64,000 nucleotides of DNA from Meiothermus sp. Pnk-1. GTDB taxonomy: Bacteria; Deinococcota; Deinococci; Deinococcales; Thermaceae. The stretch is taken from positions 186,001 to 250,000 of the forward strand of contig NZ_QKOB01000002.1 of assembly GCF_003226535.1 (NCBI RefSeq), given 5' to 3'. Position 1 is the first letter of the stretch. The number at the start of each line of letters is the position of its first letter. Shown one piece after another: positions 12,761-53,908 of this stretch. The notes beneath the pieces were generated by a model. That model was not told the DNA's origin, searched no databases, and worked only from the letters and a program-made list of their open reading frames with translations. The position numbers and the translations under genes are program-made.

Positions 12761-13696
12761 TTACTCCTGGGTGGTACCGAGGCGGGCTACTACCGAGCCC
12801 ACTTCCTCTAGCGAGCGCCGGTCAGGGAGCTTGATTTGTAACCGATTTGGACCCCAACCCACCCCCAGCGGCTCATCTACCATCCCGATCACCAGGGCCT
12901 GCTCGGCGGGCCACCACCAGGCCTCCATAGGGCCGGGCTCGTCGGTTACCAGAACATAATCGCCCTCGGCTACGCTTTTGGGGTGGCGCAGGACAGCCTC
13001 AGAGACGAAAAAGTGTTCTAGCAGATGATATACACGTATGCGCCGCGCATCGGGGATCTCGCTAGCCGGGAAGCACACCCCAGCCCCGCCTAGCGCACGG
13101 TAACGGCTGTGGGGGGCCGCAGCCAGCGGGGAGTAGACCGGGAAATGGGCCATGGGCGACTCGAGACCCGGGATCTCTAGCCCGGTGAGTTCGGTGAACT
13201 GCTCCGGGGTGAGCTTCAGCGCGCGCAAAAACTGGGCGAACTGCAGGGAGTTGAGGTCGGTGGGGTCAAACCGTCCCCGAAACACGCCATATAGCCAGGA
13301 ACGGCTCACCCCGGCTTTATCGGCCCACTCCTTGAGGTCTTTGTACTTACCGGGTCGGTCTCCCAATAGCTCATGCCGGATGTAGCGCTCGAGGGCTTCC
13401 CCCGCTCTCTTGCGCTTCTGGTTGACCTTAGCGACGCGCTCCAAATCTACCGGCGGAATATCGTGGCCGAAGCGGGCGATGAACTCTTCCCGGGTTAGAC
13501 CCAGCCCCAGCAGCAGTCCCTGCAGGTTGCGCAGGGGGAGTTCAGCGGGGTCGCGCAAACCCCGGCATATAAGGCTCAGCAAGGGCTGGCTGATGAGCCC
13601 TCCCGAACGCAGGGCGACCCCCATCTGGCTGCTGTGCAACTCGTCCCGAATGTACTGCTCAATAGCTGAACCCAGTTTTTGTAAGTCTGTTTTCAT
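12761..13696 (-). CDS. CI-like repressor with two tandem HTH modules
   Basis: A 311-residue protein. Residues 1-82 and about 96-178 are two diverged copies of the same HTH module: each runs (A/L)E(Q/R)YIR(D/H)EL, an HTH core ending in RG..DP, then a helix with LTxE(E/Q)F and an ending of (H/L)(D/E)IP. The C-terminal third (GDYVLVTDEPGPMEAWWW, then ALVIGMV) resembles the beta-rich LexA/CI dimerisation fold, but no clear Ser-Lys protease dyad is seen. The position next to int and divergent to a Cro-like gene fits the lysogeny repressor. A strong AAAGGAG site precedes the ATG, and the -10 box (TATACT, 13736-13741) overlaps operator O1. Confidence 0.75.
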   Translation of the reverse strand: MKTDLQKLGSAIEQYIRDELHSSQMGVALRSGGLISQPLLSLICRGLRDPAELPLRNLQGLLLGLGLTREEFIARFGHDIPPVDLERVAKVNQKRKRAGEALERYIRHELLGDRPGKYKDLKEWADKAGVSRSWLYGVFRGRFDPTDLNSLQFAQFLRALKLTPEQFTELTGLEIPGLESPMAHFPVYSPLAAAPHSRYRALGGAGVCFPASEIPDARRIRVYHLLEHFFVSEAVLRHPKSVAEGDYVLVTDEPGPMEAWWWPAEQALVIGMVDEPLGVGWGPNRLQIKLPDRRSLEEVGSVVARLGTTQE

Positions 13697-13723
13697 TATG
13701 GATCTCCTTTAGAGACCACTAAG

Positions 13724-13740
13724 ATACTACTTAGTAGTAT
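13724..13740. promoter_or_regulatory. operator O1: perfect 17-bp palindrome over the repressor promoter
   Basis: ATACTACTTAGTAGTAT is an 8-1-8 perfect inverted repeat. Its right half overlaps the leftward TATACT box of the repressor gene, so binding there would give autoregulation. Confidence 0.65.
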
Positions 13741-13802
13741 ATAAGCCCGACTAGATTCGTCAATCGCTTTAGCGATGGACTTGCATGAAAGTGTTTATTG
13801 TG

Positions 13803-13815
13803 TAGTATAGTACTA
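13803..13815. promoter_or_regulatory. operator O2 and leaderless promoter of the Cro-like gene
   Basis: TAGTA-TAG-TACTA is a 13-bp palindrome sharing GTAGTAT with O1. It contains the rightward -10 box TATAGT (13806-13811), followed by ACTAAC and the ATG at 13818. Repressor bound here would block the early promoter. Confidence 0.6.
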
Positions 13816-13817
13816 AC

Positions 13818-14039
13818 ATGCAGTACGAACCCAAAAACCCCCTCTTTGCCCGAACCAAAATCCGTTTCACCCATCTGGTTTCCGCAATCAAAATGTCCCG
13901 CCGTACCGCAACGAAAATGCTGCGCGCGCAGCGGTTGCCCAAGGCCGTCATCAACTGGATGGCGGCAGCAGAACTGGTTGCTGAGCGAGAAGGGGGACAC
14001 CCCTGGGACAAACTCGAGGAAATGCGCAAATCACAATAG
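13818..14039 (+). CDS. Cro-like / YdaS-like small HTH protein
   Basis: A 73-residue protein, first gene of the rightward early operon and divergent from the repressor. The segment FTHLVSAIKMSRRTATKMLRAQRLPKAVINWMAAAE reads as a small HTH with a second helix in the usual place. Position and size fit a Cro or antirepressor that turns off the lysogenic promoter. Its start is supported by the TATAGT box 6 nt upstream. Family assignment is by position and shape. Confidence 0.6.
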   Translation: MQYEPKNPLFARTKIRFTHLVSAIKMSRRTATKMLRAQRLPKAVINWMAAAELVAEREGGHPWDKLEEMRKSQ

Positions 14040-14330: not shown

Positions 14331-14626
14331 TGGGCCTGGAGATATCCGCCCGGCTCGAGGGGCTGGATCAGGTACTCGAGCTGCTGGATGAGGTGCGCGC
14401 ACTCCGTACCCTGCTCAGCGGGGGGCTACCGTTGAAAATGGTGTACACCGCGCGGGAATGGGCGGAGCGTACCTCGTACCCGGAATCGTTTATCAAACAG
14501 GAGTGCCGCGAGGGGCGCTTCCCCGGGGCCTACCAGGACCTCGGCAAAAACCGCTGGTTTATCCCTCATGAGGCCGGGGTGCGCTGGTTGGCCGCGCGCA
14601 AGGCTAAAGCGGTTCCGCAGCGCTAG
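14330..14626 (+). CDS. small HTH / excisionase-like DNA-binding protein
   Basis: A 98-residue protein: a short coiled-coil helix (residues 5-30, LDQVLELLDEVRALRTLL) followed by a MerR/excisionase-type winged HTH, YTAREWAERTSYPESFIKQECREGRFPGAYQDLGKNRWFIPHEAGVRWL. The pattern of G-x-FPGA, then RW-x-IP, then a closing tryptophan helix is typical of phage AlpA/Xis-like domains. It could act as excisionase or as an early regulator; the sequence does not decide. Starts on the stop of the preceding gene. Confidence 0.65.
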   Translation: MGLEISARLEGLDQVLELLDEVRALRTLLSGGLPLKMVYTAREWAERTSYPESFIKQECREGRFPGAYQDLGKNRWFIPHEAGVRWLAARKAKAVPQR

Positions 14627-14655
14627 TGTGCCCAGTATTTCATAGTGGGGTGTGC

Positions 14656-15771
14656 ATGACAAACATCCGTCGCTCGTCTCGAGATCGGCGCGGTTTCGTG
14701 GTCTACAACGAGACCGCTAACGACCTCGAGCTAACCGCTGAAGCCCTGGGGGTCCTGGTCTATATCCTCTCCAAGCCCGATCACTGGCGGGTCAACGTGG
14801 CAGACCTGCAGAAACGCCGGGGGATGGGCCGGGATAAGGCCTACCGCATCATGCGTGAGCTGATTGCCAACCGCTATGCTCAGTTCGTCGAGTACTACGA
14901 GCCTAATGGCCAGGTAAAAGACGGCGAATACGTCATCTATGACGTGCGCCAACCCGAAGGGCTCGAGCCCAAAGTACGCCGCCCGATTACGGAAAAACCG
15001 GATACGGCTCAGCCGGATACGGCTCAGCCGGATACGGCTTTTCAGGAAGCGGATAGAATAACGTCCAGGACACCGCTTACTGAAAACCCGGATCCGGCTA
15101 ACCCGGATACGGCTGAACCGGATCCGGCTAACCCGGAACATAGTATTAACCCAGTAGTAGTTAATACTGAAATTAAAAGCTCTCTCTCAAAGAGCGCGCG
15201 CGAAACAAAATCCGAAAAAGCTTCCCCTGCTCCAACCTCAACCCCTCGCGGCATGGGGGAAAAATCGTCAGGGGGTCAGCCCGCCGAGCCACCTCAGACC
15301 TCGGAAGATCTGCCCGGCGCGGCGGCTGGAACCACTCCAAAAGACGACCTCGAGGCCTGGGAGGCGACCTTCACCGGCTTCAAGCGGTCCCTAATCCTTG
15401 CGGCCCGGAAAGACCCTGCGGCCAGGCCGTACTATTTCACGCTAGCCCGCAAACACCGCCAGGCGCTGGGCTACGCCCTCGCTATGGGGGCCAAGCAGGG
15501 GTCTCGGGATACCGAGACGTTCCGCGCGTGGTTACCCGACCTGGTGCAGCACATCGAGCAATTCGGGGCGGATGCGGTAGCCTCCGCCCTGCAGGAATCC
15601 ATCAAGCGGGCGGGCTCGAGCCCCTGGGGCTTTTATCTCAAGCTGCTAAGCGACAAGCCCGCTACCCCCCTCGCCCCCTCTGCCCCCGCCGTGGACTACA
15701 ACGACCCCGCTGCGCGGGCTGAGCTATACAAACGCCTGCCCCTGGCTGGCGAGAAAAGGAGAGTGCGATGA
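14656..15771 (+). CDS. phage replication initiator (lambda O / DnaD-like) containing the likely origin
   Basis: A 371-residue protein. Residues 1-85 form a winged HTH (ALGVLVYILSKPDHWRVNVADLQKRRGMGRDKAYRIMRELI) as in phage O and Gram-positive phage initiators. Residues about 112-165 are a low-complexity Pro-Asp-Thr-Ala linker encoded by the iterons. After a charged linker a helical C-terminal domain (residues 235-340) follows, probably the loader-binding part. The next gene is a DnaC-type loader and overlaps by 4 bp (ATGA), the same O-P order as in lambda. The ATG at 14656 is preferred over 14626 because the HTH begins right after it. Confidence 0.7.
   Translation: MTNIRRSSRDRRGFVVYNETANDLELTAEALGVLVYILSKPDHWRVNVADLQKRRGMGRDKAYRIMRELIANRYAQFVEYYEPNGQVKDGEYVIYDVRQPEGLEPKVRRPITEKPDTAQPDTAQPDTAFQEADRITSRTPLTENPDPANPDTAEPDPANPEHSINPVVVNTEIKSSLSKSARETKSEKASPAPTSTPRGMGEKSSGGQPAEPPQTSEDLPGAAAGTTPKDDLEAWEATFTGFKRSLILAARKDPAARPYYFTLARKHRQALGYALAMGAKQGSRDTETFRAWLPDLVQHIEQFGADAVASALQESIKRAGSSPWGFYLKLLSDKPATPLAPSAPAVDYNDPAARAELYKRLPLAGEKRRVR
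14998..15168 (+). other. predicted phage replication origin: six iterons plus an AT-rich dyad
   Basis: The 12-bp unit CCGGATMCGGCT occurs at 14998, 15013, 15028, 15088, 15103 and 15118, in two groups of three with a strict 15-bp period. Three copies contain, or nearly contain, the palindrome CCGGATCCGG. Directly after them lies an AT-rich stretch with a perfect 9-bp inverted repeat, AGTATTAAC at 15142-15150 and GTTAATACT at 15160-15168. Iterons followed by an AT-rich unwinding region inside the initiator gene is the layout of the lambda origin. Confidence 0.65.
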
Positions 15772-16544
15772 CCCTGTTTGCCAAAGACGTAGCCCCGCTG
15801 GAAACGGTACGCGCCTGGCGCGCTCAGCCCACCGAGTTTGACCCCCTCGAGCACGAGGCCTACTGCGATAACGGGATGGTGACCTATTGGCGTGAGGACG
15901 GCAGCACCGCGGGTTTGCGTTGCCCGGTGTGCGACTACCTCGCGAACTTCACCCGTTTGCGGGAGCGGATGCTCGCGGCGGGGATTGGCTCGATCTACCT
16001 CGATAAGGACTGGGATTCCCTAGCCCCGGTTCCCCCCTTCCCCCACCTCCAGGCGGTATGCGCCCGCCTGGATGAGGTGATCCTGCAGGGGCACAGCCTG
16101 CTGCTGCATGGGGAATCCGGCCAGGGGAAAACCCAGGCCGCGGTGCTGATCGCTAAAGAGGCAATCAAGCGGGGGTACTCCGTGGCGGTGGAAAACCTCG
16201 GGCAGCTCAGCATCCAGGTGATGGACGCCATCAAGGGCATAGGCGAGGACACCATGGGATCCACGGTGAGGCGCCTGCAGCAGGTAGATCTGCTGGTACT
16301 CGATGACCTGGGGGCGGGAGAAGGGGAGAGCCTGGGGATCGAGCGGCGCTTGGCCTATCTCATCCTGGAAGGGCGGCAAAAGATGCAGCGGCCCACCGTC
16401 GCTACCACCAACCTCGAGCTGCACGAACTGGGGGAAATGCTAGGGGCGCGCACCTTGCAGCGGCTCGAACCGCTAAAGGTGATCCGGGTCAACCACGGCA
16501 CCAACTTTCGCCTGCAGGGAGGGAAAAGCGCATGGGACGAATAA
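15768..16544 (+). CDS. DnaC-type helicase loader (AAA+ ATPase)
   Basis: A 258-residue IstB/DnaC-like ATPase. The Walker A motif is LLLHGESGQGKTQAAV near residue 113, Walker B is DLLVLDDLGAGEGES near 178, a sensor-1 is VATTNLEL near 211, and an arginine finger region is GARTLQRLE. An N-terminal CPVCDY pair (residues about 45-50) may be part of a zinc site. It would load the host DnaB helicase onto the origin in the preceding gene. ATGA overlap with the initiator and 13-bp overlap with the next gene. Confidence 0.85.
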   Translation: MTLFAKDVAPLETVRAWRAQPTEFDPLEHEAYCDNGMVTYWREDGSTAGLRCPVCDYLANFTRLRERMLAAGIGSIYLDKDWDSLAPVPPFPHLQAVCARLDEVILQGHSLLLHGESGQGKTQAAVLIAKEAIKRGYSVAVENLGQLSIQVMDAIKGIGEDTMGSTVRRLQQVDLLVLDDLGAGEGESLGIERRLAYLILEGRQKMQRPTVATTNLELHELGEMLGARTLQRLEPLKVIRVNHGTNFRLQGGKSAWDE

Positions 16545-16906
16545 GGGCCCTAGCCGCGTTTGCCCTGCTGGCCCTGCTCGGCTGCGTCGCGCTGTGGCAG
16601 GTAATGCCCCGCCCAGCTCAAGAACCCCTGGTAGTCGTACTTCCCCTCCCCCGTCCCAATCCCTCCTATCCAGGCGACCTTCGCGCCCTGCTCGAGCAAG
16701 CCGGTACCGCGTGCGCTCGAGCCATGTGGAATGGCCTAGGCAGCGTTGATTGGATCCCCGCCTTTTCCTGTAGGCTCGAGCGGCGGGGTGAGCGCTGGGG
16801 GATGCGCGCTATGTATCGCGGGCATCCCATCCCCGCCGCTCCCGGCTGGCCGGATACCTGGGTGAGCCTGTCCGGGGAAGAGTACCGGTTGCGGGAGTTG
16901 CCGTAA
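16532..16906 (+). CDS. small membrane-anchored protein, function unknown
   Basis: A 124-residue protein with an N-terminal hydrophobic segment (residues 6-24, AAFALLALLGCVALWQVM). LLGC looks like a lipobox, but the segment runs on afterwards, so a simple N-terminal anchor is equally possible. The remainder (TACARAMWNGLGSVDWIPAFSC) has two cysteines. Not recognised. The start lies inside the 3' end of the loader gene, 10 nt after GGAGG. Confidence 0.55.
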   Translation: MGRIRALAAFALLALLGCVALWQVMPRPAQEPLVVVLPLPRPNPSYPGDLRALLEQAGTACARAMWNGLGSVDWIPAFSCRLERRGERWGMRAMYRGHPIPAAPGWPDTWVSLSGEEYRLRELP

Positions 16907-16909
16907 GCC

Positions 16910-16938
16910 TTGTCAACGGCTAGAACACTATGTAATAG
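16910..16938 (+). promoter_or_regulatory. sigma70-type promoter before the second early operon
   Basis: TTGTCA (16910-16915), 17-bp spacer, TAATAG (16933-16938). A GAGG ribosome site and the ATG at 16956 follow. The core ACTATGTAATAGTAATAAC resembles the promoter cores at 29870-29890 and 46072-46086. Confidence 0.65.
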
Positions 16939-16955
16939 TAATAACGAGGATCCCA

Positions 16956-17801: not shown

Positions 17802-18865
17802 TTCGTGTTTCACGCAAAGCGTTGGTAGAGGCCGTGGGGCTGGTGGGTAGCATCATCCCCAAAGGGAATAAGGTCAACCCGCTGCTGGGCAACCTTTTCG
17901 TGCAGGCTAGCCCGGCGGGGATGCGGCTGTGGGGCTCGAATGGCGAGATCGACCTGGAAGTATCCCTCGAGGCGGAGGTGGAGCGGGAGTATCGGGCGCT
18001 GGTGCCCTATGCGCCCTTTCATGCTTTCCTGGCGGCCTTACGGGGCGATACGGTCAGCTTCAAGGAATCCGGTAGGCTCGAGCTGGAGAGCGAGGCCGCA
18101 CGGGCCAGCTTTGCCACGATGAGCCCCGAAGAGTATCCGGCGCTGTTTGAGGGCTGGGTAGAACCCCAGATGACCCTGACCAATGCCGAACTGCTTTTTA
18201 TCCTCAAGGCGGCCTATGCGGCTAGCACCGAGGAGTACCGGGGCATCTTCCGTGGGGTACAGCTGGAAAGCGGCGGCGGCAAGCTCAAGGCGGTGGCCTC
18301 GGACGGCTATCGCCTGGCCATGGCCTGGGTAGAGCATTCCGAACAAGCCGGGGTCTGCGTAATCCCCCGGGCCGTGGTGGGGATTTTGCAGCAGTTGGCT
18401 GAGCCTGGGGAGCGGGGGGCGCTGGGGTGGAATGAGCGGGGGATTTTTTACCGCTCCGGCCCGTATCGCCTCAGCGCGCGGCGGCTCGAGGGGGAGATGC
18501 CCGATTACAACCGGGTCATCCCCCAAGCCTTCGTGGCTAAACTCTCCCTCCCGCGCGAGGCCTTCCTGGAGTCGGTGCGGCGGGTCGCGGTGCTGGCTGA
18601 TCCCGATAATCGCCGCCTGGATTTGCACCTGGACGACAAGATAACCCTCGGGGCGGAGGGGGATTGGGGGCGAAGCAGCGAGGTGATGCAGGGGGAATAC
18701 CAAGGACCCACGCTGGCCTTCTCGGTCAGGGCTCCCTACCTGCTCGATGCGCTGAAGTATGCGGCGGATGCCGAGATCGTGACCCTGGACCTTTCCGGTC
18801 CCACCACGCCCTTCGTGGTACGCGGGGAAAGGACCATGGCCCTGATCGTGCCGCTGAGGGTGTAA
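17798..18865 (+). CDS. dnaN: phage-encoded DNA polymerase III beta subunit (sliding clamp)
   Basis: A 355-residue protein with the three-domain beta-clamp architecture. Domain 1 starts MIRVSRKALVEAVGLVGSIIP and has ANLxV-like GNLFVQASPAGMRLWGSN; domain 2 starts MTLTNAELLFILKAAYAAS and carries the hallmark VASDGYRLAMAW; domain 3 starts AKLSLPREAFLESVRRVAVLA and ends with RTMALIVPLRV. Clamps tether the polymerase to DNA. A phage copy could favour phage replication or recruit phage proteins through clamp-binding motifs. GGAGG lies 6 nt before the ATG, and the stop overlaps the next start (TAATG). Confidence 0.88.
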   Translation: MIRVSRKALVEAVGLVGSIIPKGNKVNPLLGNLFVQASPAGMRLWGSNGEIDLEVSLEAEVEREYRALVPYAPFHAFLAALRGDTVSFKESGRLELESEAARASFATMSPEEYPALFEGWVEPQMTLTNAELLFILKAAYAASTEEYRGIFRGVQLESGGGKLKAVASDGYRLAMAWVEHSEQAGVCVIPRAVVGILQQLAEPGERGALGWNERGIFYRSGPYRLSARRLEGEMPDYNRVIPQAFVAKLSLPREAFLESVRRVAVLADPDNRRLDLHLDDKITLGAEGDWGRSSEVMQGEYQGPTLAFSVRAPYLLDALKYAADAEIVTLDLSGPTTPFVVRGERTMALIVPLRV

Positions 18866-19653
18866 TGGGCCGCGCCTGGACTGAGGCCCAGGTGGACTAC
18901 CTGCGGCGCAACTACAACCGCCTAGGACCCGTGGCCTGCGCGCATTCCCCGGTCCTGCAGGGGCGCAGCGTACACGCCATCCGCACCAAAGCGCAGCGGC
19001 TGGGCCTTTATTTCCACATCAACCCCCCTGAGGGGTACGTGCTGGCATCGGTGGTGGGGGCTGAGGCGGGGATGCCCTATGATCAATTGATTTTCCAGGC
19101 TATGGTGCGGGAAACCCTGCGGCTATGGGTGGAAGCCCTCTCCTGGCGCTATCTCCGCCGCCGCGCTAGGTGGATTCCCCCCCTCCCCCTCTTGCTCCAG
19201 ATAAAGCGGGCCTGGGTGGTGCATGAGCGCCTTGCGGCGGCTTATATAGAGCAGATGGGGCGCTATCGAGCGGCGGTGGCCGCGGGGTATCTTTCGAGCC
19301 TCGAGGCCGCCCGCTATCTGGGACTGCATCGCGTTTCGCTGTTGCGGGGACTGGAAGGGCGGGGGGCTTATGGGGATCTGCTACGTACGATCAAGCACGT
19401 TTACTCCCCCGGCGGCTGGCTCGCGGTAGAACCCTACTCCCTCGAGCGCGCCCGCATTGGCATCGAAAAGCGCAAGCGTGCCGTTCTCGAGCGGGGCACC
19501 CCGGTAAAGGTGCTCGCCGCCGAGGCGGGGTGCCACCTGGCCTCAATCCACGACCGGCTTGCGGTGCGCAAGATTCCCGTTCAGCAGATCGTGCATCGGG
19601 GGCGGCGCATGGCGTTCGCGCTGGTGGAGGGGGCAGGCGAAGCCAATGCCTAA
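18865..19653 (+). CDS. phage DNA-binding protein with several HTH-like segments
   Basis: A 262-residue protein. The N-terminus WTEAQVDYLRRNYNRLGPVACA..RSVHAIRTKAQRLGL is a SANT/Myb-like HTH often found in phage regulators. Two further HTH-like segments are SSLEAARYLGLHRVSLLRGLEGRGAY (near 150) and VLAAEAGCHLASIHDRLAVRKIPV (near 215). Not assigned to a named family; a regulator of late genes is a reasonable guess from its position. The start ATG overlaps the clamp stop; the longer frame from 18664 lies inside the clamp gene and is spurious. Confidence 0.65.
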   Translation: MGRAWTEAQVDYLRRNYNRLGPVACAHSPVLQGRSVHAIRTKAQRLGLYFHINPPEGYVLASVVGAEAGMPYDQLIFQAMVRETLRLWVEALSWRYLRRRARWIPPLPLLLQIKRAWVVHERLAAAYIEQMGRYRAAVAAGYLSSLEAARYLGLHRVSLLRGLEGRGAYGDLLRTIKHVYSPGGWLAVEPYSLERARIGIEKRKRAVLERGTPVKVLAAEAGCHLASIHDRLAVRKIPVQQIVHRGRRMAFALVEGAGEANA

Positions 19654-20359: not shown

Positions 20360-21109
20360 ATGCCCGAAATCAAATACAACCCCGATGGCACCCCCTTTGT
20401 CGAGACCATGCGGCTCGGACATGCGGAAGTGCAACGCTGTCAAGCCAAGAAACGCGACGGTTATCAATGCGGCCAGCCCGCGGCCAAAGGGACTCGAGTG
20501 TGCAAGATGCACGGGGCGGGAACCCGCAAGCGGGTGGAGCGCGGCGAGCGCAAGGACCCCCTTACGGTCAACACGGTCTTTGGGGTGTACGCCAAGAGCG
20601 GCAAAACCCGCATCTCCGAGATCCGCGAGGAACTCGAGCGGCTGTACCAGCAACAGGATATCGAGAACACCGATCCCGACCTCATCGTGGTGCGCGCGGT
20701 GCTCAAGATGCTCCTCGAGCAGGAAGACCGCGTAGCTCAGGCCGCGCTAACCCTCGAGGACGCTTCCAAGCTCGTAGAAGGCCAGCTCGAGGCCCTGCGG
20801 CTGTCCCCCGACCTCGAGACCATCGCCGTAGTCGCCAAGGCCGCCCGCGATGTGTCCCAGGCCTATGGACTGCTGGAAAACTACTCGCGCATCGTCTCGG
20901 ATCACGCCTATCGGGTCATCAAGGCGGTGGAATCGCGCGCTACTACCCGGGCCAAGACCGCCGAGGCCAAGGCCCTAGAAAAGTTCCTCGAGCTAAGCGC
21001 CCTGCTTTCGAGCATCCTGCGGGAAACGCTCGAGCCAGAGCAGTACGAAATAGTCTACGCCCGCTTCAAAAACGAGGTAATGGCCCAGCTACAGCCTCCC
21101 GGCGGTTAG
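20360..21109 (+). CDS. phage protein with N-terminal HGGxTS-like cysteine motif
   Basis: A 249-residue protein. Residues 25-55 show RCQAKKRDGYQCGQPAAKGTRVCKMHGAG, a C-x10-C...C-x2-H motif widespread in phage proteins encoded next to terminases, probably a metal-binding knuckle. The rest is mainly helical with coiled-coil character (EELERLYQQQ; LEDASKLVEGQLEALRL; EAKALEKFLELSALLSS). It may be a small terminase or a packaging/replication accessory. It ends 13 bp before a leftward terminator, so the noncoding RNA coming from the right stops just behind it. Confidence 0.6.
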   Translation: MPEIKYNPDGTPFVETMRLGHAEVQRCQAKKRDGYQCGQPAAKGTRVCKMHGAGTRKRVERGERKDPLTVNTVFGVYAKSGKTRISEIREELERLYQQQDIENTDPDLIVVRAVLKMLLEQEDRVAQAALTLEDASKLVEGQLEALRLSPDLETIAVVAKAARDVSQAYGLLENYSRIVSDHAYRVIKAVESRATTRAKTAEAKALEKFLELSALLSSILRETLEPEQYEIVYARFKNEVMAQLQPPGG

Positions 21110-21112
21110 TGC

Positions 21113-21139
21113 AAAAGAAAACCCCCGCACCAGCGGGGG
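21113..21139 (-). terminator. leftward intrinsic terminator of the noncoding locus
   Basis: On the minus strand CCCCCGC-TGGT-GCGGGGG is followed by TTTTCTTTT. The U-tract is only on the minus side, so this stops transcripts coming from 21140-21660 leftward, not the rightward early operon. Confidence 0.75.
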
Positions 21140-21624
21140 ATATAAGTCTCGGGAAAGCCGCAACAACGGGTTCGAGCCGGGCGCAAGGCACACGCGCTCG
21201 AGATCGGTTGGGGTGGAGGTCTTTCAAGGTTCACGAGCCGCGCAGGCTCTTTCGCCTATTCCGCCCGGCGTCCACCGGATTTCGCCTCGCCCTTTCCTGA
21301 GCGTTCGCCGTACCCCCGCGCCTTTCGGGCTCTCACCGAGGCCCCCTCAACTTTCGGCTGTTCGACCGCCTTTCGGGCGGGCTAGGGGGTAACCCGGATA
21401 CGGTTTGCAGGTACGGCTAGGTGCGTTTTCGGCGCCCATCAGCCCGTATCGTGGGCCAGTCCAATCCGTCCGCGTTTGCGCACTCGAGCTTTGGCCTCGG
21501 TGCCGCACCCCGGCGCTCGGGGAGGACTCGCTCGAGGGCCGGGGTCTCTGGTGCGCCCAGGGCGGCTTATCTGATCGTCCCGGCGGGGCTCGAGGGCCCT
21601 CGAACCCAAACTAGCACAACTTTC
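21140..21624 (-). ncRNA. candidate structured noncoding RNA, about 500 nt, leftward
   Basis: No convincing protein gene exists in this 500-bp stretch; the small frames here lack ribosome sites and cross the repeats. On the minus strand it ends in a perfect intrinsic terminator (21113-21139) and begins beside a divergent promoter region. It is rich in short GC hairpins closed by CGAAA or GAAA (for example CCGCC-CGAAA-GGCGG at 21366-21380, GCC-CGAAA-GGC at 21321-21331, GAGCC-TGCGC-GGCTC at 21235-21249). It may instead, or also, contain the packaging site, since the terminase genes are next to it. Confidence 0.45.
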
Positions 21625-21661
21625 TATACTTGTCTATAAGGTAATAAAGTATACTCAAGCC
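21625..21661 (+). promoter_or_regulatory. divergent promoter region with inverted repeat before DUF3307
   Basis: TATACTT (21625-21631) and AAGTATA (21647-21653) form an inverted repeat. Rightward, TATACT (21650-21655) plus CAAGCC leads to the ATG at 21662, a leaderless start. On the minus strand TTGAGT and TATAGA are present, though only 14 bp apart, as a possible start of the noncoding transcript. Confidence 0.55.
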
Positions 21662-21994
21662 ATGAACGGTCTGCTCCCCTTAGACCTCCTCGCGGCGCAT
21701 CTGGCAGGGGATTTCCTGCTGCAAAGCGACTGGATGGCTGCAAACAAACTACGCTGCTGGCGGGCTCGAGCCCTCCATGTAGCCACCTATGCGGCTGCCT
21801 TTCTGCCGGTGCTAGCCCTGCACTGGCCGGGCCTCGGCAGGGCGCTGCTCTTCCTCGGGCTCTTGGCGCTAAGCCATTTCCTTACCGACTCCCGGAGATG
21901 GTCTACCGGGGAGACCTGGCCGGCCAAGCCCATCGTGGTGGATCAGGTCTTGCACGTAATCGAGTTGGCTATTTTGGCGAGGCTTTTTGGATAA
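21662..21994 (+). CDS. DUF3307 family membrane protein
   Basis: A 110-residue protein matching the DUF3307 pattern: LLAAHLAGDFLLQSDWMAANK, then ALHVATYAAAF, HFLTDSRRWST and IVVDQVLHVIELAILARL. Three to four hydrophobic segments. The domain is found in phages and bacteria but has no known function. Conserved His, Asp and Gln residues in the membrane part are intact. Starts without a leader after TATACT, so it heads a new rightward unit that includes the terminase genes. Confidence 0.8.
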   Translation: MNGLLPLDLLAAHLAGDFLLQSDWMAANKLRCWRARALHVATYAAAFLPVLALHWPGLGRALLFLGLLALSHFLTDSRRWSTGETWPAKPIVVDQVLHVIELAILARLFG

Positions 21995-22015
21995 CTGAAC
22001 ACACGAGGTAGGGCC

Positions 22016-22510
22016 ATGTACGACGCAACCGATGATCTAGACAAACTCCTAGCCCAACCCGAGGACCCCCGTGAGGCGGTAGAGCGGGCCGCGCGGGCGC
22101 TTACAACCGCGCGGATGGGGATAGGGAAGGGCCTGCCGCTGCCCGAGCCGGTGCAAGGCGAGATCGAATGGCCGGAAGACCTCACCCTCATCGCGCCCGA
22201 GCAGATCGGGCGGATGCTGGGCTTGCTGGCCGGGCATACCGCCTATGCCGAGAGCGAACTGGCCGCGGCTGAGGTCCAGGTGATGCTGCTCGAGTACCAA
22301 GAAGGGCTCGAGCGGGCCTTGTTCCAGGGGGATAGGGGAGAGTGGGAGACCAGCCCCCAGGGGCGGCACTATGGGGTGGCGTTGCTGCAATGGCGGGCTC
22401 GAGCCCGGCTCCTGCGGGGCCTCATCCGGGGCTATGAGTCCCGCTACGCCGCCCTCTCGCGCGAGCTGACCCGGCGCGGAATAGGCTGGGGCCAGGTGGG
22501 GAAGGGGTAG
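22016..22510 (+). CDS. phage protein, possible small terminase subunit
   Basis: A 164-residue, mostly helical protein (AESELAAAEVQVMLLEYQEGLERALF; LLQWRARARLLRGLIRGYESRYAALSREL). No named family is recognised. It lies 2 bp upstream of the large terminase gene on the same strand, where the small subunit usually sits, but no HTH is clear. GAGGTAGGG precedes the ATG. Confidence 0.55.
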   Translation: MYDATDDLDKLLAQPEDPREAVERAARALTTARMGIGKGLPLPEPVQGEIEWPEDLTLIAPEQIGRMLGLLAGHTAYAESELAAAEVQVMLLEYQEGLERALFQGDRGEWETSPQGRHYGVALLQWRARARLLRGLIRGYESRYAALSRELTRRGIGWGQVGKG

Positions 22511-22512
22511 GG

Positions 22513-24609
22513 ATGCTGCCCTACGAAAATCGCTTGGTGCAGGGGTTCCTCGAGCGGATAGCTCCCCCCACGCCGGAGTTTTCCCCGGAAGAGCTGGCTA
22601 CCCTCGAGAGCTTCGCCCGGGCCTCGGGGATTCGCCCTGAAGGCCCCGGCGGGCCGCCGTTCAGCCTGGAAGGTCGGGAGTACATGCAACCGCTGTATGA
22701 CGAGCGGCGGGAGGATCCCTATTACCGGCTGGTGATCATGAAGTCGGCGCAGCTCGGCCTGACCATCCATGAACTCTACCGGGGGGCCTGGTTCACTGCC
22801 GATGCCCGGCGGCGGGTCAACGTGGGCTTTTTCTTCCCCTCGCAGAACGCGGTGTATGACCTATCGGCCTCCCGCTTCAAGCCGATGTTCCAGAATGCTA
22901 GCCGCATGATGCGCCTGGCCGATGCCGGGGGGCTAGCGCGGGTGGATGTGGTGCGCTTTGGGGTTTCGGTGATGCGCTTCCGTGGCATGAAGTCGGGAGT
23001 GAGCATGGATTCGGTGCCCCTCGATGCGCTCCTCTTCGATGAGGTGCGGCTGATGAGCCGTGCGGCTATCGAGCGGGTGCAAAAGCGCGTGCTCGAGTCC
23101 AAGCACGTATCCCCCACCGGCCTCAAGGGGATCATCCAGCTCGGGAGCACGGCGGGATTCCCGGATTCGGATATTCACGCCTACTTCCTGCAGTCCGATC
23201 AGCACTGGTTCATGACCCGCTGCCCGGGGCCGCTGTGCGAAAACCGTCACGGCTTCAACCTGGCTCAGGCCTGGGTGGATACCCAGGGGGCGGTGGTCAA
23301 CGCCAGCGATCCTGCCGATCTGCACTACCGCTGCCCGCGCTGTGGGCGGCGCATAGAACACGTCCTGGAGGGCGATTGGGAGCGGCTGGGGCCAGCCGAT
23401 GCGGAATGGCGGGGCTACCAGATGAACCGTACCCTCAAGGGGCCGCGGGAGCTGCCCCAGCTATGGCGCAACTTCCAGACCATGGTAGTGGGTGGAGTCA
23501 ACCCGGCGGAGTTCTACAACTCCGACCTGGGCCTGCCCCACAAAGACCCCAATGCGGTGATCGTCACCGCGGCGGTATTCAACGAGGGGAAACAGGTGGA
23601 TCCCGACTACCACTGGCCGCTCGAGCCCGAACGGCCTCCCAGGGCCGCCGCGCGGGCCTTCGGCATAGACCAAAAGCCGGGGCAAAAGCACGTCCTCATC
23701 GCAGAGTGGGGGCCTAACGGGCGTATCTATCCGGTACACCTGGAGATAGTGGAAGAGGAAGGGGTGGATGAGCGGGGCAAGGATCGGGCGGTAGAGCGTA
23801 CTGTAGCCATCCTGCGGCAATGGAATGTGGATGTGGGGGTGGTGGACGCCGAGCCGTCGTTTGATTACGCCCTCGGGGTAGCCCAGCGGATGCCCAGGGG
23901 AGCGGTATGGCTGGCGGATTATCTCGACGACCGCGACCAGCCCCTAGAGTGGAGCGACCAGCGCGGGAGTGAGAAAATTAGCCTCTCCAAGCGGGAAGCC
24001 AAGTACGAGTACTGGGTCAAGATCGACCGCTACAAGCACCTGCTGCAGGCGTTCACCCTTTTCCGGCATCATCGGGTGGCGGTGCCGGTGGACCTCGAGC
24101 GCAAGGGACAAGAGCTATGGGTAGACGGCACCCGGAAATGGGTATCCCTGGGAGATGAATGGCGGCGGCACATGGGGAACATCGCCCGCACCTCGCTCCC
24201 CCGCCGCCGCAAACATCCCGAGACCGGCGAGATCATCGATGAGGGCAAGTTCAGCTACACCTTCCGGCACCTCTCGGTTGAGCCCGACTTTGCCCACGCC
24301 TGGGGCTTTTGTGTGGCCGCCCTGATGCGGGACGCGGGGTCAACCCAGATGGTTCCTACTACCCCTCCTCCTACCCACCGCACCGGAACCCTGCAAGACC
24401 AGCTCCCCGAGGCGCTGCGCCCGGTAGCCCTGGCCAAGAAGGTGGACAAGACCTGCTCGAGCTGTCAGTTTTTCACGCCCAATCCGAATGGGCAGGGCCT
24501 GGGGCGGTGCGAGAGCCCCACCCTGCGGCGGGCAATGGGGATCCCTGTTGAGGGCGTGCTATCCACCGCCCCCACCCACAGCAACTGCGCGCATTGGAAA
24601 AAGCGCTAG
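22513..24609 (+). CDS. phage terminase large subunit (GpA family)
   Basis: A 698-residue GpA-type large terminase. The ATPase part has IMKSAQLGLTIHE (Walker A-like, near residue 78) and LDALLFDEVRLMS (Walker B with catalytic acid, near 178), plus the adenine/coupling block GIIQLGSTAGFPDSDIH. A CPRCGRRIEH zinc pair lies near 277. The nuclease part has FGIDQKPGQKHVL and VGVVDAEPSFDYALGVA with the RNase H-like aspartates. It packages DNA into the prohead. The C-terminal 50 residues add a cluster CSSCQFF...GRCESP...NCAHW. The stop overlaps the convergent methylase gene by 4 bp. Confidence 0.92.
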   Translation: MLPYENRLVQGFLERIAPPTPEFSPEELATLESFARASGIRPEGPGGPPFSLEGREYMQPLYDERREDPYYRLVIMKSAQLGLTIHELYRGAWFTADARRRVNVGFFFPSQNAVYDLSASRFKPMFQNASRMMRLADAGGLARVDVVRFGVSVMRFRGMKSGVSMDSVPLDALLFDEVRLMSRAAIERVQKRVLESKHVSPTGLKGIIQLGSTAGFPDSDIHAYFLQSDQHWFMTRCPGPLCENRHGFNLAQAWVDTQGAVVNASDPADLHYRCPRCGRRIEHVLEGDWERLGPADAEWRGYQMNRTLKGPRELPQLWRNFQTMVVGGVNPAEFYNSDLGLPHKDPNAVIVTAAVFNEGKQVDPDYHWPLEPERPPRAAARAFGIDQKPGQKHVLIAEWGPNGRIYPVHLEIVEEEGVDERGKDRAVERTVAILRQWNVDVGVVDAEPSFDYALGVAQRMPRGAVWLADYLDDRDQPLEWSDQRGSEKISLSKREAKYEYWVKIDRYKHLLQAFTLFRHHRVAVPVDLERKGQELWVDGTRKWVSLGDEWRRHMGNIARTSLPRRRKHPETGEIIDEGKFSYTFRHLSVEPDFAHAWGFCVAALMRDAGSTQMVPTTPPPTHRTGTLQDQLPEALRPVALAKKVDKTCSSCQFFTPNPNGQGLGRCESPTLRRAMGIPVEGVLSTAPTHSNCAHWKKR

Positions 24610-25559
24610 GGCCCGCGGGCGAAATCGAAAAGGGTTAAGCTCCGGGTGACGTTGCTCCAGATCGCCTCGAAGCGGGGGACTTTAGCTAGAGCCGCCCCCT
24701 CGCCGCGCAACATTGAACCGCGAATCCGCCCAGCGGCATGGGATGCGGTGGGGATGACGATCTTGTGCCATCCGGCATCCTCCAAGGGCTTGTAGATGGG
24801 GTGGTCGTAGCCAGACAACACTGCCTTGCCCTGGATATTGAGCAAAAGCTGCACCAGGGCTTGGTGGTGCTCGTCGTCGGCTTCGTGGGCGTAGCCGCCA
24901 TGATTTCTCGTTTGAAGCACATACGGCGGGTCAATGTAAAATAAAGTATTTGGCGTGTCCCAGTAGCGGATGCACTCCAGGGCGTCTATGGAGTCTATTT
25001 GCACCCGCATGAGCCGGTCGTGCCAGGAGGCGAGGAGCTTGAGCCGCCCCCGCCATCTATTTGTTGTTTCAGCCATGCCCCGATTCGATGCGGTGAGCAC
25101 CCGGCTCCAATTGCCCTCGCAGGTCGCTTCGCCACTGAATCCCTGGTTCTGCGCCACAAAGAACGCCCAGGCCCGGTCCAGGTCGGAAGCGCTGGGATCT
25201 TGCAGGATCGCCAGAGCCCGGCGGAACTCCGCCCTGGAGTAGGGGGTCCAGACAAGGCGGTGGGCCAATTCCTCGAATTTGGCCCGGTCCTGCAGCACCC
25301 GGAATAGGGTGACGATGCGGTCGTCGAGGTCGTTGAGGACCTCGACCGGATAGGGCTCGGTCAGGTGCCAGAACACCGAGGCCGCCCCGGCGTAGGGTTC
25401 GACGTAGGTGGTGGCCTTGGGGAGCAAAGGGATGATGCGCTGAGCTAGATTCCCCTTGCCGCCGAACCATCGGAAAGGGGCCATCGCTCGGCTAGGCGGA
25501 GGGATCGCTTCGAGTATTTCGTCTATAGAGATAGCGCTTTCTTCCATGTTATGCCTCAA
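24606..25559 (-). CDS. dam: DNA adenine methylase, D12 class (Dam-like)
   Basis: A 317-residue alpha-class N6-adenine methyltransferase. The SAM motif is FRWFGGKGNLAQRI (F-x-G-x-K), followed by YVEPYAGAASVFWHL (motif I region), a helical target-recognition part and the catalytic LFYIDPPYVLQ. FDFARGP closes the fold. It may protect phage DNA from host restriction or mark it. Recognition sequence unknown; GATC is the common one for the family. It overlaps the IscB fusion stop by 4 bp, in a leftward accessory cluster. Confidence 0.92.
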   Translation of the reverse strand: MRHNMEESAISIDEILEAIPPPSRAMAPFRWFGGKGNLAQRIIPLLPKATTYVEPYAGAASVFWHLTEPYPVEVLNDLDDRIVTLFRVLQDRAKFEELAHRLVWTPYSRAEFRRALAILQDPSASDLDRAWAFFVAQNQGFSGEATCEGNWSRVLTASNRGMAETTNRWRGRLKLLASWHDRLMRVQIDSIDALECIRYWDTPNTLFYIDPPYVLQTRNHGGYAHEADDEHHQALVQLLLNIQGKAVLSGYDHPIYKPLEDAGWHKIVIPTASHAAGRIRGSMLRGEGAALAKVPRFEAIWSNVTRSLTLFDFARGP

Positions 25560-26512
25560 TATCCCTCTGCATTACCCGACTCCTTTTTGCGGAAATACTG
25601 AGCATACATCCGCTCCCACTCATCGAGCGGGACGAACCGCTGGCCGTCGTCGGTCCATTCCCACCACCCCTCAACCGCTAACGCCAGGTCGCGCAGCTTC
25701 CGAACCGTATCCAGGGCTATAGGCCCCATCCCCCACTGCAAAGGTTGGGGATATTGCTGAATGGCTTTCCATAGCGCCACTTCTGTTCCGCTCATCCATC
25801 CTGCGGCCCAGTGGTCCTCAGAGGCTTCGGACATAAGTTCAAACAGATAGTCCATCGCCGCTTCTCTAAGGATGCGCTGCCTTTCCTCTTCGAGGGGCAC
25901 ATTCTCCTTCCCGCAGTAAGCGCACCGGCGCCCGAACTTCTCCAGCAGATACTCCCGGACCTCATAGCCGTAAAGTTCGCCCCGCTGGTATTCGACGCCG
26001 CTGATCTCAGGATTCTGGAGCGCCTGCGTATCGAAGCGAACCAACTCCATCGAAATGGCTTCGACGGGGCAGAGACGAAGCAGCCGTTTGACCCAGGTCT
26101 CGATGTTGGCTACCCGACTTGCCAGGGAGGGCGGGAGCCACCCGGACGGGCGGCGTCGGTTGTTAAAGCGGGCCTTGCGGTAGCGAGTCTTCCTGCTCCT
26201 TCGTGCCCTGCGAAGCTGCCGCCGGGCCAGAAGTCGCTCACGGATCTGTTGGCCCCGATGAGTCAGTTCTGCCGCCCACACGACCCGACCAGTAACCTCG
26301 TTGACAACGGCAATTCCCGTCACCTTGGAGCCGGGGTCAATCTTGACGCGATGGGCATGAGTGGTAGAGTCGGCAACCCTCCGCTCCTTCAGAATGATGG
26401 TGAACGGATACCTACGGAACACAGCCGCTTTCCCTGCCTTCAAGAGCTTCCGTGCCCTGGCAGGGTGGCAGGGATCAAGCGGCTTTCGATTGCTGTCAAG
26501 CACAAACACCAT
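25556..26512 (-). CDS. iscB: truncated IscB fused in frame to a phage protein C-terminus
   Basis: Residues 1-208 are IscB: MVFVLDSNRKPLDPCHPARARKLL (PLMP-type start), RuvC-I KIDPGSKVTGIAVV with its Asp, an Arg-rich bridge helix (RRQLRRARRSRKTRYRKARF), RuvC-II AISMELVRFD with its Glu, and the beginning of the HNH domain, CAYCGKENVPLE. There the homology stops; the HNH catalytic His, second zinc pair and RuvC-III are missing. The remaining 110 residues (LMSEASEDHWAAGWMSG, VEGWWEWTDDG) look like the C-terminus of an ordinary phage protein. IscB proteins are omega-RNA-guided nickases/nucleases and Cas9 ancestors; this copy should not cut. Start ATG 26512 follows the omega-RNA; a longer frame to 26719 runs through it. 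Confidence 0.85.
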   Translation of the reverse strand: MVFVLDSNRKPLDPCHPARARKLLKAGKAAVFRRYPFTIILKERRVADSTTHAHRVKIDPGSKVTGIAVVNEVTGRVVWAAELTHRGQQIRERLLARRQLRRARRSRKTRYRKARFNNRRRPSGWLPPSLASRVANIETWVKRLLRLCPVEAISMELVRFDTQALQNPEISGVEYQRGELYGYEVREYLLEKFGRRCAYCGKENVPLEEERQRILREAAMDYLFELMSEASEDHWAAGWMSGTEVALWKAIQQYPQPLQWGMGPIALDTVRKLRDLALAVEGWWEWTDDGQRFVPLDEWERMYAQYFRKKESGNAEGY

Positions 26513-26764
26513 ACCAGAGCACCTCCTTACGGAGCAAACTCGCCTTTCGGCGGTAACGTTGGCCTCGCCAATGTCTGCCAGGCTTGTCACGCCGTCAACC
26601 TTCGCCCTGTACCCCACACAGGACAGCATGATCGACGACGGCAGTTGCCACAGGCTGGCCTCGCACCTGTGGGTGCCATGACCCGGCAAACGTAGCCCCA
26701 AAGGGCTTAGGCTGGTCACGAACGAGGGCTACAAGCCCCCGCCTTCAGGCGTGGGGTTCGTGAC
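25889..26764 (-). mobile_element. remnant of an IS200/IS605-type element carrying iscB
   Basis: The end at 26734-26764 carries a 31-nt hairpin segment matching 24 of 31 positions of the TnpB element end at 55070-55100, including a compensated stem pair. The other end is lost: IscB coding sequence stops at about 25889, joined to unrelated phage coding sequence. No tnpA is present. Confidence 0.6.
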
Positions 26765-26780
26765 AATTGGCCTGTCCCCT
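26513..26780 (-). ncRNA. omega-RNA scaffold and guide region of the IscB element
   Basis: The 250 nt upstream of iscB contain no gene of their own but strong structure. The minus-strand GTCACGAAC (26756-26764) pairs with GTTCGTGAC (26715-26723), enclosing a CCCCACGCC-TGAA-GGCGGGGG hairpin, as in IscB guide RNAs. In IscB systems the guide is the flanking DNA just outside the element, here 26765 and upward, which overlaps the last codons of the PP-loop gene. Transcript ends are not determined. Confidence 0.65.
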
Positions 26781-31274: not shown

Positions 31275-31670
31275 TCAGCCCTGGATTGCGCTGCTATGAA
31301 CCTCTCCCTGCACCGCTAGCAAGAGGTGAACCCGCTCGATGAGCTGTTTGAGGGCCAGATCATAGGCATATCCGATGGCCCTGGCCTCGAGGTCGTCCAC
31401 AAAGGGCAGATCCAGGATCCAGCCAATGATGGGGATGCGGTGGTCCCACTCCTCCACCACGGCTATGGTCTCTTTCTTGGCCTGCTCGATCACCTCTTTG
31501 AGCTTGCCCACTACCCAATCCTCTTTTTCCTGCCCGGTAGCCCCGGGCAGAAAGCCCTCGGCAAACTTCACCAGCTCGCCCGCTACCCATTCCAGGTCTT
31601 CCTTGTTCAGACCGTCCTTCAGGTGGTCCACCAGTTCCTTGATGAAGGCTAGCAGTTTGTCGTTTTCCAT
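31275..31670 (-). CDS. phage hypothetical protein, helical, acidic
   Basis: A 131-residue protein not recognised. It is almost entirely amphipathic helix (LLAFIKELVDHLKDGLNKEDLEWVAGELVKFAEGF; KLKEVIEQAKKETIAVVEEW) with a short hydrophobic patch HRIPIIGWILDLPFVDD. Flanked by terminators on both sides, so expressed apart from its neighbours or by readthrough. A GGGAGG site lies 4 nt before the ATG at 31670. Location downstream of the lysis genes makes a lysis-accessory role possible. Confidence 0.6.
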   Translation of the reverse strand: MENDKLLAFIKELVDHLKDGLNKEDLEWVAGELVKFAEGFLPGATGQEKEDWVVGKLKEVIEQAKKETIAVVEEWDHRIPIIGWILDLPFVDDLEARAIGYAYDLALKQLIERVHLLLAVQGEVHSSAIQG

Positions 31671-31709
31671 AAATCCTCCCGCCCCTAAGGTGGTGTGCAA
31701 GAAGGGTAA

Positions 31710-45440: not shown

Positions 45441-45754
45441 TGGTGGAGTCGGGGGGAGTTGCACCCCCGTCCAAGCTCCCTCCACGCGCGGCGCTATACA
45501 GGCTTTGTTTGGCACAGGAGGTTGGTTCGGTGTGGCCTGGCCCTCAGGGGCCCCCGAGTTTTGATCCCCCGGATACTACTCGGGCACTCTCCGGGCGATT
45601 CCTCCTAGGCGACCATGCGAAGCATGGGGGGCAAGGAGGGGTATGGGATTACCGAAGGCTTGGCGCTTATCGGTTTGCCCGTTGGTAACGCAGCCACGGG
45701 CGCTGCGGCCTGCTCCGCGCGGTTTTGGAAGCCTGTCGAACCTGGACCGACCCC
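45441..45754 (-). ncRNA. ssrA: phage-encoded tmRNA (ssrA) with a 19-residue tag
   Basis: A 314-nt tmRNA. The 5' end GGGGTCGGTCCAGGTTCGAC carries the GG-TTCGAC signature, and GGGGTCG pairs with CGACTCC next to the 3' ACCA. T-arm GGGGG-TGCAACT-CCCCC is present with one loop change. A PK1-like stem GCCCGT/ACGGGC is followed by AAACCGATAAGC and the resume codon GCC at 45664-45662, as in the Thermus context ATAACT-GCC. The tag reads AKPSVIPYPSLPPMLRMVA and stops at TAG (45605). tmRNA with SmpB frees stalled ribosomes. It lies between baseplate genes, in a cassette with a tRNA, a promoter (46075) and a terminator. Confidence 0.85.
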
Positions 45755-45833
45755 ATAGGCCGGGGAAACCCCGGCAAGCGCGTCCACCACCCAGGGCTTG
45801 AGCCACCCGAGGAGAGTCCCACAGGACAGGCGA

Positions 45834-45908
45834 TGGTTGCGGGGCTGGGAGTCGAACCCAGCGTCTCGTGGTTATGAGCCACGCGGCTACCCGGTTGCCT
45901 TCCCCGCA
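45834..45908 (-). tRNA. tRNA with CAT anticodon (tRNA-Met or tRNA-Ile2), phage-encoded
   Basis: Acceptor TGCGGGG/CCCCGCA, D-stem GGC/GCC, anticodon stem CGTGG/CCACG with loop CTCATAA (anticodon CAT), T-arm CTGGG-TTCGACT-CCCAG, and encoded CCA. The first pair T-A and the lack of GGG/CCC in the anticodon stem argue against an initiator. CAT could be elongator Met or, if lysidylated by TilS, Ile2. Confidence 0.9.
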
Positions 45909-45969
45909 ACGGGCTCGAGCTTGACGCACTCGAGCAGAGGGCCGCTACCCAGGCCCAGCGGTAGACCCT

Positions 45970-46044
45970 GTTCGGGTGCGGGGATAGAACCCGCGGCGTC
46001 CCGTTTCCGAGATACCCCCTCGGCGGGGTAGTGCTAGACCGAAC
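45970..46044 (-). tRNA. degenerate tRNA-like element, identity unassigned
   Basis: GTTCGGT pairs with CCCGAAC over six of seven positions and a T-arm GCGGG-TTCTATC-CCCGC is present, but position 57 is T and one extra base separates the T-arm from the acceptor. The middle can fold as CCGAG-GGGGTAT-CTCGG, which lacks U33. It is first in the RNA cassette. It may be a decayed tRNA or a divergent phage one. Confidence 0.35.
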
Positions 46045-46074
46045 GCGGCGGCGCTAGTTCCACCGCGTGGGGTT

Positions 46075-46103
46075 ATTATCACATAGTTATCAAAACCGTG
46101 CAA
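46075..46103 (-). promoter_or_regulatory. promoter of the tRNA/tmRNA cassette
   Basis: Minus-strand TTGCAC (46103-46098), 17-bp spacer, GATAAT (46080-46075). It overlaps the 3' end of the spike gene, so the RNA cassette can be expressed without the late operon. Confidence 0.65.
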
Positions 46104-46104
46104 G

Positions 46105-47094
46105 CTATTTAGCCTTGACCTTGCTCGAGCCCGACTTGATGGTTCCGCTGAGCACCACCGGGACCGGGTTGGGGACGTTCTGGTTGACCCAAAAGGTCCC
46201 TGGGGGCACCGTCACCTCAACCGTATCCCCCAAGCGGGCTACCCCCTGCGAGGCCCCTTCCCCGAGTTCCACCTGGGCCGCCTCGATCACGATTTTGACC
46301 GGGTTTTCCTGCAGCTTGATGCGGGCTCCCCCCGCGGCCTCGAGCACGATTGCGCTGTCCGCTCCGGCGTTGCCCGGGGTGGTGATATGGCCGTCACGGT
46401 CGCGGCCTTTCTCGTCGTCGTCGAATAGGCGCAGGGTGTGCCCGCGCGGGCTGGAAAGAAAGAAGCTGCCATCCGCGCTGATCCTGACCTCAGCCCCGCT
46501 CGAGTGCTTGAGCACGATGTCTACCGGAGGTTCGGCCTGAAAGGGATAATCCACCCGCTGGCTCTCAAACCCGCTGCCCCCCGCCTTCTTGCGGCGCACC
46601 TTGCGGGGAGTCTTGGCGGCGCGCAGGCTGGGGTTTCCGGGGGCGCCGTCCTTGCGGGTGGTCACCTTGAGCAGCGTGCCATCGGGCCAAACCGTCTCCT
46701 GGGTGCCATCCCCGTGGGTGATCTGGTAGAAGTCGCTGATGTGCTGCCAGACCTCGGCGTAGGGATCCTTGCGCCAAAGCTCCTCGGGGGCGGCGTGGCG
46801 TAAGTCGTCGGGGATCGAGCCTAGCCAGAAACCCGACTCCCCGTCGTTTTCGGTGAAGGCCACCAGGCCCCAATCCCCCACCCGGGGGAGGCTATAGCGC
46901 CCCGCGCTAGGCCCCGCCCCTGGGGTGAGCATCCGCACCCGGAAGCGGGGGGCCTCATCGGTCCCCCCCATCATCATCAGGTTGGAGAGCAGCACGCTGA
47001 GGGTGGCCGCGTAGGGGGCGGTATCGGTGGGGGAGTCCTGGGCGGTGCCGGGGTGGATGGCGATGACCTGGGCTAGGTGGATACCTTTGAGCAT
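46105..47094 (-). CDS. baseplate spike / assembly protein V (gpV-like)
   Basis: A 329-residue protein. The N-terminal OB-like part has FRVRMLTPGAGPSAGRYSLPRVGDWGLVAFTENDGESGFWLGSIPDD, the pattern of gpV/gp5 (P-x-x-G-x-x-V-x-VxF-x-x-G-x-x-xx-Pv-x-LG). A basic linker follows, then repeats of the triple-beta helix type (GAEVRISADGSFFLSSPRGHTLRLFDDD; GARIKLQENPVKIVIEAAQVELGEGA). It forms the membrane-piercing spike under the hub. Confidence 0.82.
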   Translation of the reverse strand: MLKGIHLAQVIAIHPGTAQDSPTDTAPYAATLSVLLSNLMMMGGTDEAPRFRVRMLTPGAGPSAGRYSLPRVGDWGLVAFTENDGESGFWLGSIPDDLRHAAPEELWRKDPYAEVWQHISDFYQITHGDGTQETVWPDGTLLKVTTRKDGAPGNPSLRAAKTPRKVRRKKAGGSGFESQRVDYPFQAEPPVDIVLKHSSGAEVRISADGSFFLSSPRGHTLRLFDDDEKGRDRDGHITTPGNAGADSAIVLEAAGGARIKLQENPVKIVIEAAQVELGEGASQGVARLGDTVEVTVPPGTFWVNQNVPNPVPVVLSGTIKSGSSKVKAK

Positions 47095-53809: not shown

Positions 53810-53896
53810 GGCGCGGAGACCCCTGCCTTCAGGCATGGGGTTGACGAAGTCCCTGCGATAGCAGGGGAGCGCCGCTCCTCCTTTCGCATGATATGT

Positions 53897-53902
53897 TATA
53901 CT
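53897..53902 (+). promoter_or_regulatory. -10 box of leaderless promoter for tnpB
   Basis: TATACT, TTGCTT, then ATG at 53909. Confidence 0.5.
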
Positions 53903-53908
53903 TTGCTT

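Follow-up and report, generated by a model that had tools for sequence, protein, structure and literature searches.

A candidate leftward noncoding transcription unit between the terminase genes of a Meiothermus prophage

Few large noncoding RNAs are known from phages, and what they do has yet to be settled. This holds for GOLLD and ROOL, which are prophage-borne, intergenic and hundreds of nucleotides long, many GOLLD RNAs exceeding 800 nt (PMC12286853). A location near tRNA islands is one of the features by which they are recognised. Two other systems offer points of comparison for the locus described here: phage morons, which bring their own promoter and terminator, sit between core genes and are absent in relatives, and bacterial bidirectional promoters built on symmetric -10 elements (PMC12825309, PMC10268837).

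Here we analyse a 64-kb stretch of DNA (hereafter the window) from Meiothermus sp. Pnk-1, which shares the family Thermaceae with Calidithermus and Thermus, and focus on the interval between the putative small terminase gene (TerS) of a prophage and the divergent DUF3307 gene that lies before its large terminase gene (TerL). We find this interval to be noncoding, and it is likely that a leftward noncoding transcript, delimited by a putative promoter island and an intrinsic terminator, arises from it (Table 1). With its clear signals of a transcription unit and its lack of a gene and of known relatives, the locus offers an inexpensive, testable starting point in thermophiles that can be cultured.

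Table 1. Coordinates, in the window, of the candidate unit, its neighbours and the prophage features used for comparison.
Feature	Position	Strand	Basis or content
Putative small terminase (TerS), left neighbour	20360..21109	+	position and conservation beside TerL; PHROG family without assigned function
Candidate leftward noncoding transcription unit, ~510-530 nt	21113..21641	-	noncoding, terminator, AT island; start 21626-21641
Intrinsic terminator	21113..21139	-	CCCCCGC-TGGT-GCGGGGG-TTTTCTTTTG: 7 G-C pairs, loop TGGT, tail TTTTCTTTTG; hairpin 21122-21139
Possible closing helix, 3' strand	21153..21181	-	pairs with 21624-21579
Cluster of three CGAAA-loop hairpins	21325..21380	-	three of the window's nine such hairpins (both strands), within 49 bases (21327-21375)
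5' domain of the putative RNA	21502..21625	-	sole part folding better than shuffles; z -2.33, plus strand -1.84
AT-rich divergent promoter island (putative)	21602..21670	.	inverted repeat and lowest 45-mer GC 0.27
Candidate palindromic -10 AGTATACT	21648..21655	both	TATACT on each strand
DUF3307 membrane protein, divergent neighbour	21662..21994	+	Pfam PF11750 E 1.1e-13; phrog_2470, moron category
164-aa protein, function unknown, same cargo interval	22016..22510	+	no relative in searches
Large terminase (TerL), right border of variable interval	22513..24609	+	phrog_675 E 4.8e-60
AT island	13659-13838		divergent immunity region
AT island	15129-15193		within replication-initiator gene 14626-15771
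AT island	46072-46118		beside tRNA-Met/tmRNA, their upstream region
Prophage gap	16545-16955		filled by ORF 16532-16906
Prophage gap	18866-19558		filled by ORF ~18865-19653
Prophage gap	25560-26778		IscB and its omega-RNA
Prophage gap	45475-46104		tmRNA and tRNA-Met

The prophage occupies the window from ~11.4 kb onward, with a tRNA-Ser at 11368 and an integrase beside it. An immunity-like divergent region (13.7-13.8 kb) and a replication module that encodes a DnaC-like loader and a beta clamp precede TerS, and TerL is followed by leftward late genes, including those for the tail sheath and the major head protein. Judged by TerL, the nearest phages are the Thermus phages Cumys and phiMa and prophages of Calidithermus chliarophilus and Thermus sp. 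2.9, all at ~50-53% identity. Single-sequence TerL scans returned no close sister phage, alignment-based scans reached relatives of ~52% identity or less, and scans with the DUF3307 and 164-aa proteins yielded distant relatives or none. The C. chliarophilus prophage shares DnaC, a 281-aa protein, the beta clamp, HJR, TerS and TerL, and its TerS-TerL gap is 131 bp long and empty. Where TerS and TerL lie close together in other relatives, they are separated by 15 bp to 2.2 kb with different genes, and no terminator of comparable quality was found in those intervals. Because the TerS-TerL interval is thus empty or differently filled among relatives, we read it as a cargo slot, and by this comparison 21113-22510 is the lineage-specific cargo of the present phage. 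The cargo resembles morons in its position between core genes and its absence in relatives, as well as in the assignment of DUF3307 to the moron/host-takeover category of PHROGs; it differs from them in that the leftward unit encodes no protein and the terminator faces left only.

The original prediction that the interval contains no credible gene was borne out by several measures. Under a codon model trained on the long ORFs of the window, 21110-21661 carries no codon signal, the mean log-odds being negative in all six frames, and its 3-base periodicity is 0.36, compared with at least 5.8 in coding segments of equal length (n=73) and a shuffled median of 0.94. No small ORF of the interval matched Pfam. 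On the gene map, the prophage has five gaps of more than 150 bases, and this is the only one for which no ORF, tmRNA/tRNA or IscB/omega-RNA accounts (Table 1). A decayed leftward gene that kept its terminator might have left such a stretch, and in two relatives a 153-aa leftward gene of similar size does lie directly behind TerS, in the same place and on the same strand (L047 2773-3234, L049 2734-3195). However, tblastn with that protein and with other cargo proteins of the relatives detected no trace in the interval, and the periodicity falls below even the shuffled median, so that this origin is mostly refuted and very improbable. The interval is no gene, and it is not a recent pseudogene either.

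At the left end, directly at the 3' end of TerS and just past its stop codon, the proposed minus-strand intrinsic terminator proved to be one of the best in the window. When both strands of the 64 kb were scanned for hairpins with 7 or more G-C pairs immediately followed by a T tract (at least 6 T in 9), only four strong terminators emerged, all on the minus strand; the other three lie directly 3' of genes (62784-63977, 31275-31700 and the tmRNA gene). The one beside TerS has the richest T tract of the four (8 of 9). Weaker terminator-like hairpins, with 5 or 6 G-C pairs, fall inside genes. By analogy, a leftward transcript would end at ~21113. Since no leftward gene is present between the interval and the methyltransferase at 24606, such a transcript would either start at the AT-rich island or represent antisense read-through across TerL, the latter being the less likely source.

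The right end of the interval had been described as a divergent promoter region with an inverted repeat, and this description holds in part. The inverted repeat TATACTT (21625-21631)/AAGTATA (21647-21653), which could be an operator, is unique in the window; the AT-richest 45-mer of the island is among the most AT-rich of the window (rank 5e-5), and islands at the same threshold number four in all, including this one. The candidate -10 reads rightward as TATACT at 21650-21655, 6 bp before the ATG of the DUF3307 gene, and leftward as TATACT at 21653-21648; three of the eight TATACT copies found on both strands of the window lie within the island. A -10 element directly before the start codon yields a leaderless mRNA, an arrangement common in Deinococcus-Thermus (PMC12340547), and the DUF3307 mRNA is probably leaderless. 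The same spacing recurs before the gene at 13818, where TATAGT stands 6 bp from the ATG. Leftward, the start would be placed uncertainly at ~21641 (from TATACT) or ~21626 (from the weaker TATAGA, 21638-21633). On the other hand, a scan of the interval for sigma-70 consensus promoters found none, and no recognisable -35 is present.

These signals also fit the main rival account, in which the palindromic -10 of the DUF3307 gene fires leftward as well, the terminator has been selected only to spare TerS from antisense RNA, and the 500 nt between them are a roleless spacer. In bacteria, promoters that fire both ways are common (PMC12825309, PMC10268837), AGTATACT has the symmetry they display, and the terminator is placed directly at the 3' end of TerS. 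The locus differs from the described cases in that its leftward product, predicted from sequence, would be ended by a dedicated strong terminator. Were the leftward RNA only a by-product of a symmetric promoter, the locus would be a neat case of a phage that keeps antisense transcription at bay next to a packaging gene. So long a useless spacer would nevertheless be surprising in a phage in which every other gap is accounted for, and the internal features of the interval bear further on the question.

The interval had also been described as dense in short GC hairpins with CGAAA or GAAA loops on the minus strand. The claim of an overall density above chance was not borne out: the folding of the whole minus strand relative to shuffles gave z -0.62 and -0.77 in two runs at 37 C and z -0.06 when the temperature was set to 60 C, and the tmRNA and HEARO omega-RNA of the same window, folded as controls on their proper strands, reached z ~ -3. 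The impression of dense hairpins is therefore what GC-rich sequence yields. What stands of the claim concerns the CGAAA loops. The density of CGAAA on the minus strand tops that of every other 549-base stretch on either strand (6-7 copies; shuffle p ~0.002), and three CGAAA-loop hairpins are clustered (Table 1), this clustering having been noticed first and tested afterwards, which inflates its significance. The loops in question are pentaloops, CGAAA; GNRA tetraloop hairpins whose stems reach 4 bp are absent from the interval. Locally, 120-base segments at 21500 and 21520, in the 5' domain of the putative RNA, gave z -3.07 and -2.87 (1st percentile of random positions, -2.5), the CGAAA-rich middle lay between -1.3 and +1.1, and the terminator end was low on both strands, as expected for a palindrome. 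The possible closing helix would join the presumed 5' end to a point just before the terminator, with p 0.06-0.12 when compared with shuffled sequence and with other segments of the window. The lack of excess structure across the whole and the lack of relatives (see below) agree with the by-product account, but the non-random CGAAA-hairpin cluster and the stable 5' domain speak against it, and we judge it rather unlikely.

Read as DNA, the same repeats could instead form a packaging site (pac or cos) or another binding site for TerS, consisting of repeated plus-strand TTTCG and GC-rich palindromes. The location between the terminase genes is suggestive, and TTTCG occurs at 21250, 21280, 21323, 21352, 21371 and 21427. 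The spacing of these copies is irregular (30, 43, 29, 19 and 56 bases), however, nothing of the kind lies between TerS and TerL in relatives, and the terminator and promoter would be left unexplained. The pac sites of headful phages, moreover, often lie within terS. Redundant termini are assumed for the related Lalka phages (PMC11437467), which also counts against this explanation, and we consider it quite improbable.

The proposed kinship with large structured phage RNAs of the GOLLD/ROOL kind is not supported. The interval shares with them a prophage-borne, intergenic position, a noncoding character, a length of hundreds of nucleotides and an open function, but the candidate RNA is shorter than GOLLD, no ornate structure or conservation has been demonstrated for it, and no tRNA island adjoins it, the nearest tRNAs lying at 11368 and 45834. 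Searches of the interval with Rfam cmscan, at gathering level and up to E 10, gave no credible match to GOLLD, ROOL, OLE, HEARO or any other family. Blastn and nhmmer searches, which covered 111 genomes from the phylum, 50,697 records of phages and 72,556 of plasmids as well as fetched loci, returned only short chance matches; two of the four genome matches (in L002 and L004) are inside protein-coding ORFs, a third (L005) is beside one, and the fourth is in L003. A single-sequence covariance model of 21307-21417, run over 34 loci and the 111 genomes, matched only itself. No relative of the candidate, by DNA sequence or by structure, emerged from these searches. Matches to neighbour loci in tblastx were rejected as compositional noise.

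When viral-contig DNA was searched with patterns describing the 5' hairpin and the CGAAA hairpins in tandem, one match fell in a coding gene (L135) and two were intergenic, in the IMG/VR phage contigs L136 (4415-4447) and L137 (3896-3929). In both of the latter, tandem CGAAA-loop hairpins follow just past a gene whose product has an SSB-like acidic tail (DEE-IPF), and the first stem carries a compensatory change (GUAGCGCC/GGCGCUAC versus GCAGCGCC/GGCGCUGC); the element has no Rfam match. Like the interval, it places two CGAAA-loop hairpins side by side in intergenic DNA, but it is a short element between two genes of two similar phages, with no wider similarity to the interval, and the resemblance is probably convergent.

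In the reading that we prefer, an AT-rich, symmetric promoter built on a palindromic -10 would fire both ways, producing rightward the leaderless DUF3307 mRNA and leftward an RNA of ~510-530 nt that would stop at the intrinsic terminator beside TerS. The unit would be carried as accessory cargo in the variable TerS-TerL slot of a contractile-tailed Thermaceae prophage. The RNA, whose synthesis and action we infer alike, would act independently via its stable 5' hairpins and three CGAAA-loop hairpins; because like hairpins are clustered, a protein-binding or decoy role, in co-expression with the DUF3307 gene, would seem most likely. In favour of a functional RNA are a terminator of a quality otherwise seen only behind genes, an AT island on a par with those of the immunity and tRNA-Met/tmRNA regions, the fact that a module otherwise so tightly packed retains ~500 nt of noncoding sequence with hairpins, the strand-specific stability of the 5' domain and the clustering of CGAAA hairpins. 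Against it stand the missing folding excess of the whole RNA, the lack of relatives and of a recognisable -35, and a closing helix that is not significant. We hold tentatively, as something just short of probable, that the leftward unit is cargo making a functional, independent RNA. That it represents a new class of phage-encoded noncoding RNA, ~510-530 nt long and equipped with a divergent promoter and a terminator of its own, helix-closed ends and three CGAAA hairpins, binding a phage or host protein and serving the lysogen or the infection, is unlikely. A large structured RNA is not established, and orphan candidate phage noncoding RNA is a fair label.

Several other elements of the window were recorded. 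The immunity-like divergent region, AT-rich like the island beside DUF3307, contains at 13720-13811 the inverted repeats ATACTAC-TTA-GTAGTAT and TAGTATAGTACTA, which are possible repressor operators, and the AT island in the replication-initiator gene is a possible phage origin. A second tmRNA gene lies in the prophage at 45441-45754 on the minus strand (94.5 bits), beside tRNA-Met and with an unusual predicted tag, AKPSVIPYPSLPPMLRMVA; the host's own tmRNA (193 bits) is on another contig. The IscB-like ORF 25556-26764 (minus strand) has a complete RRXRR domain and is accompanied by a full-length HEARO omega-RNA (26553-26764); its HNH part seems to be cut short after CAYCGKENVPLE, where another sequence takes over, and the element is probably decayed. 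In the tail module, a TnpB-like transposase ORF (53888-55084, plus strand) runs opposite to its neighbours.
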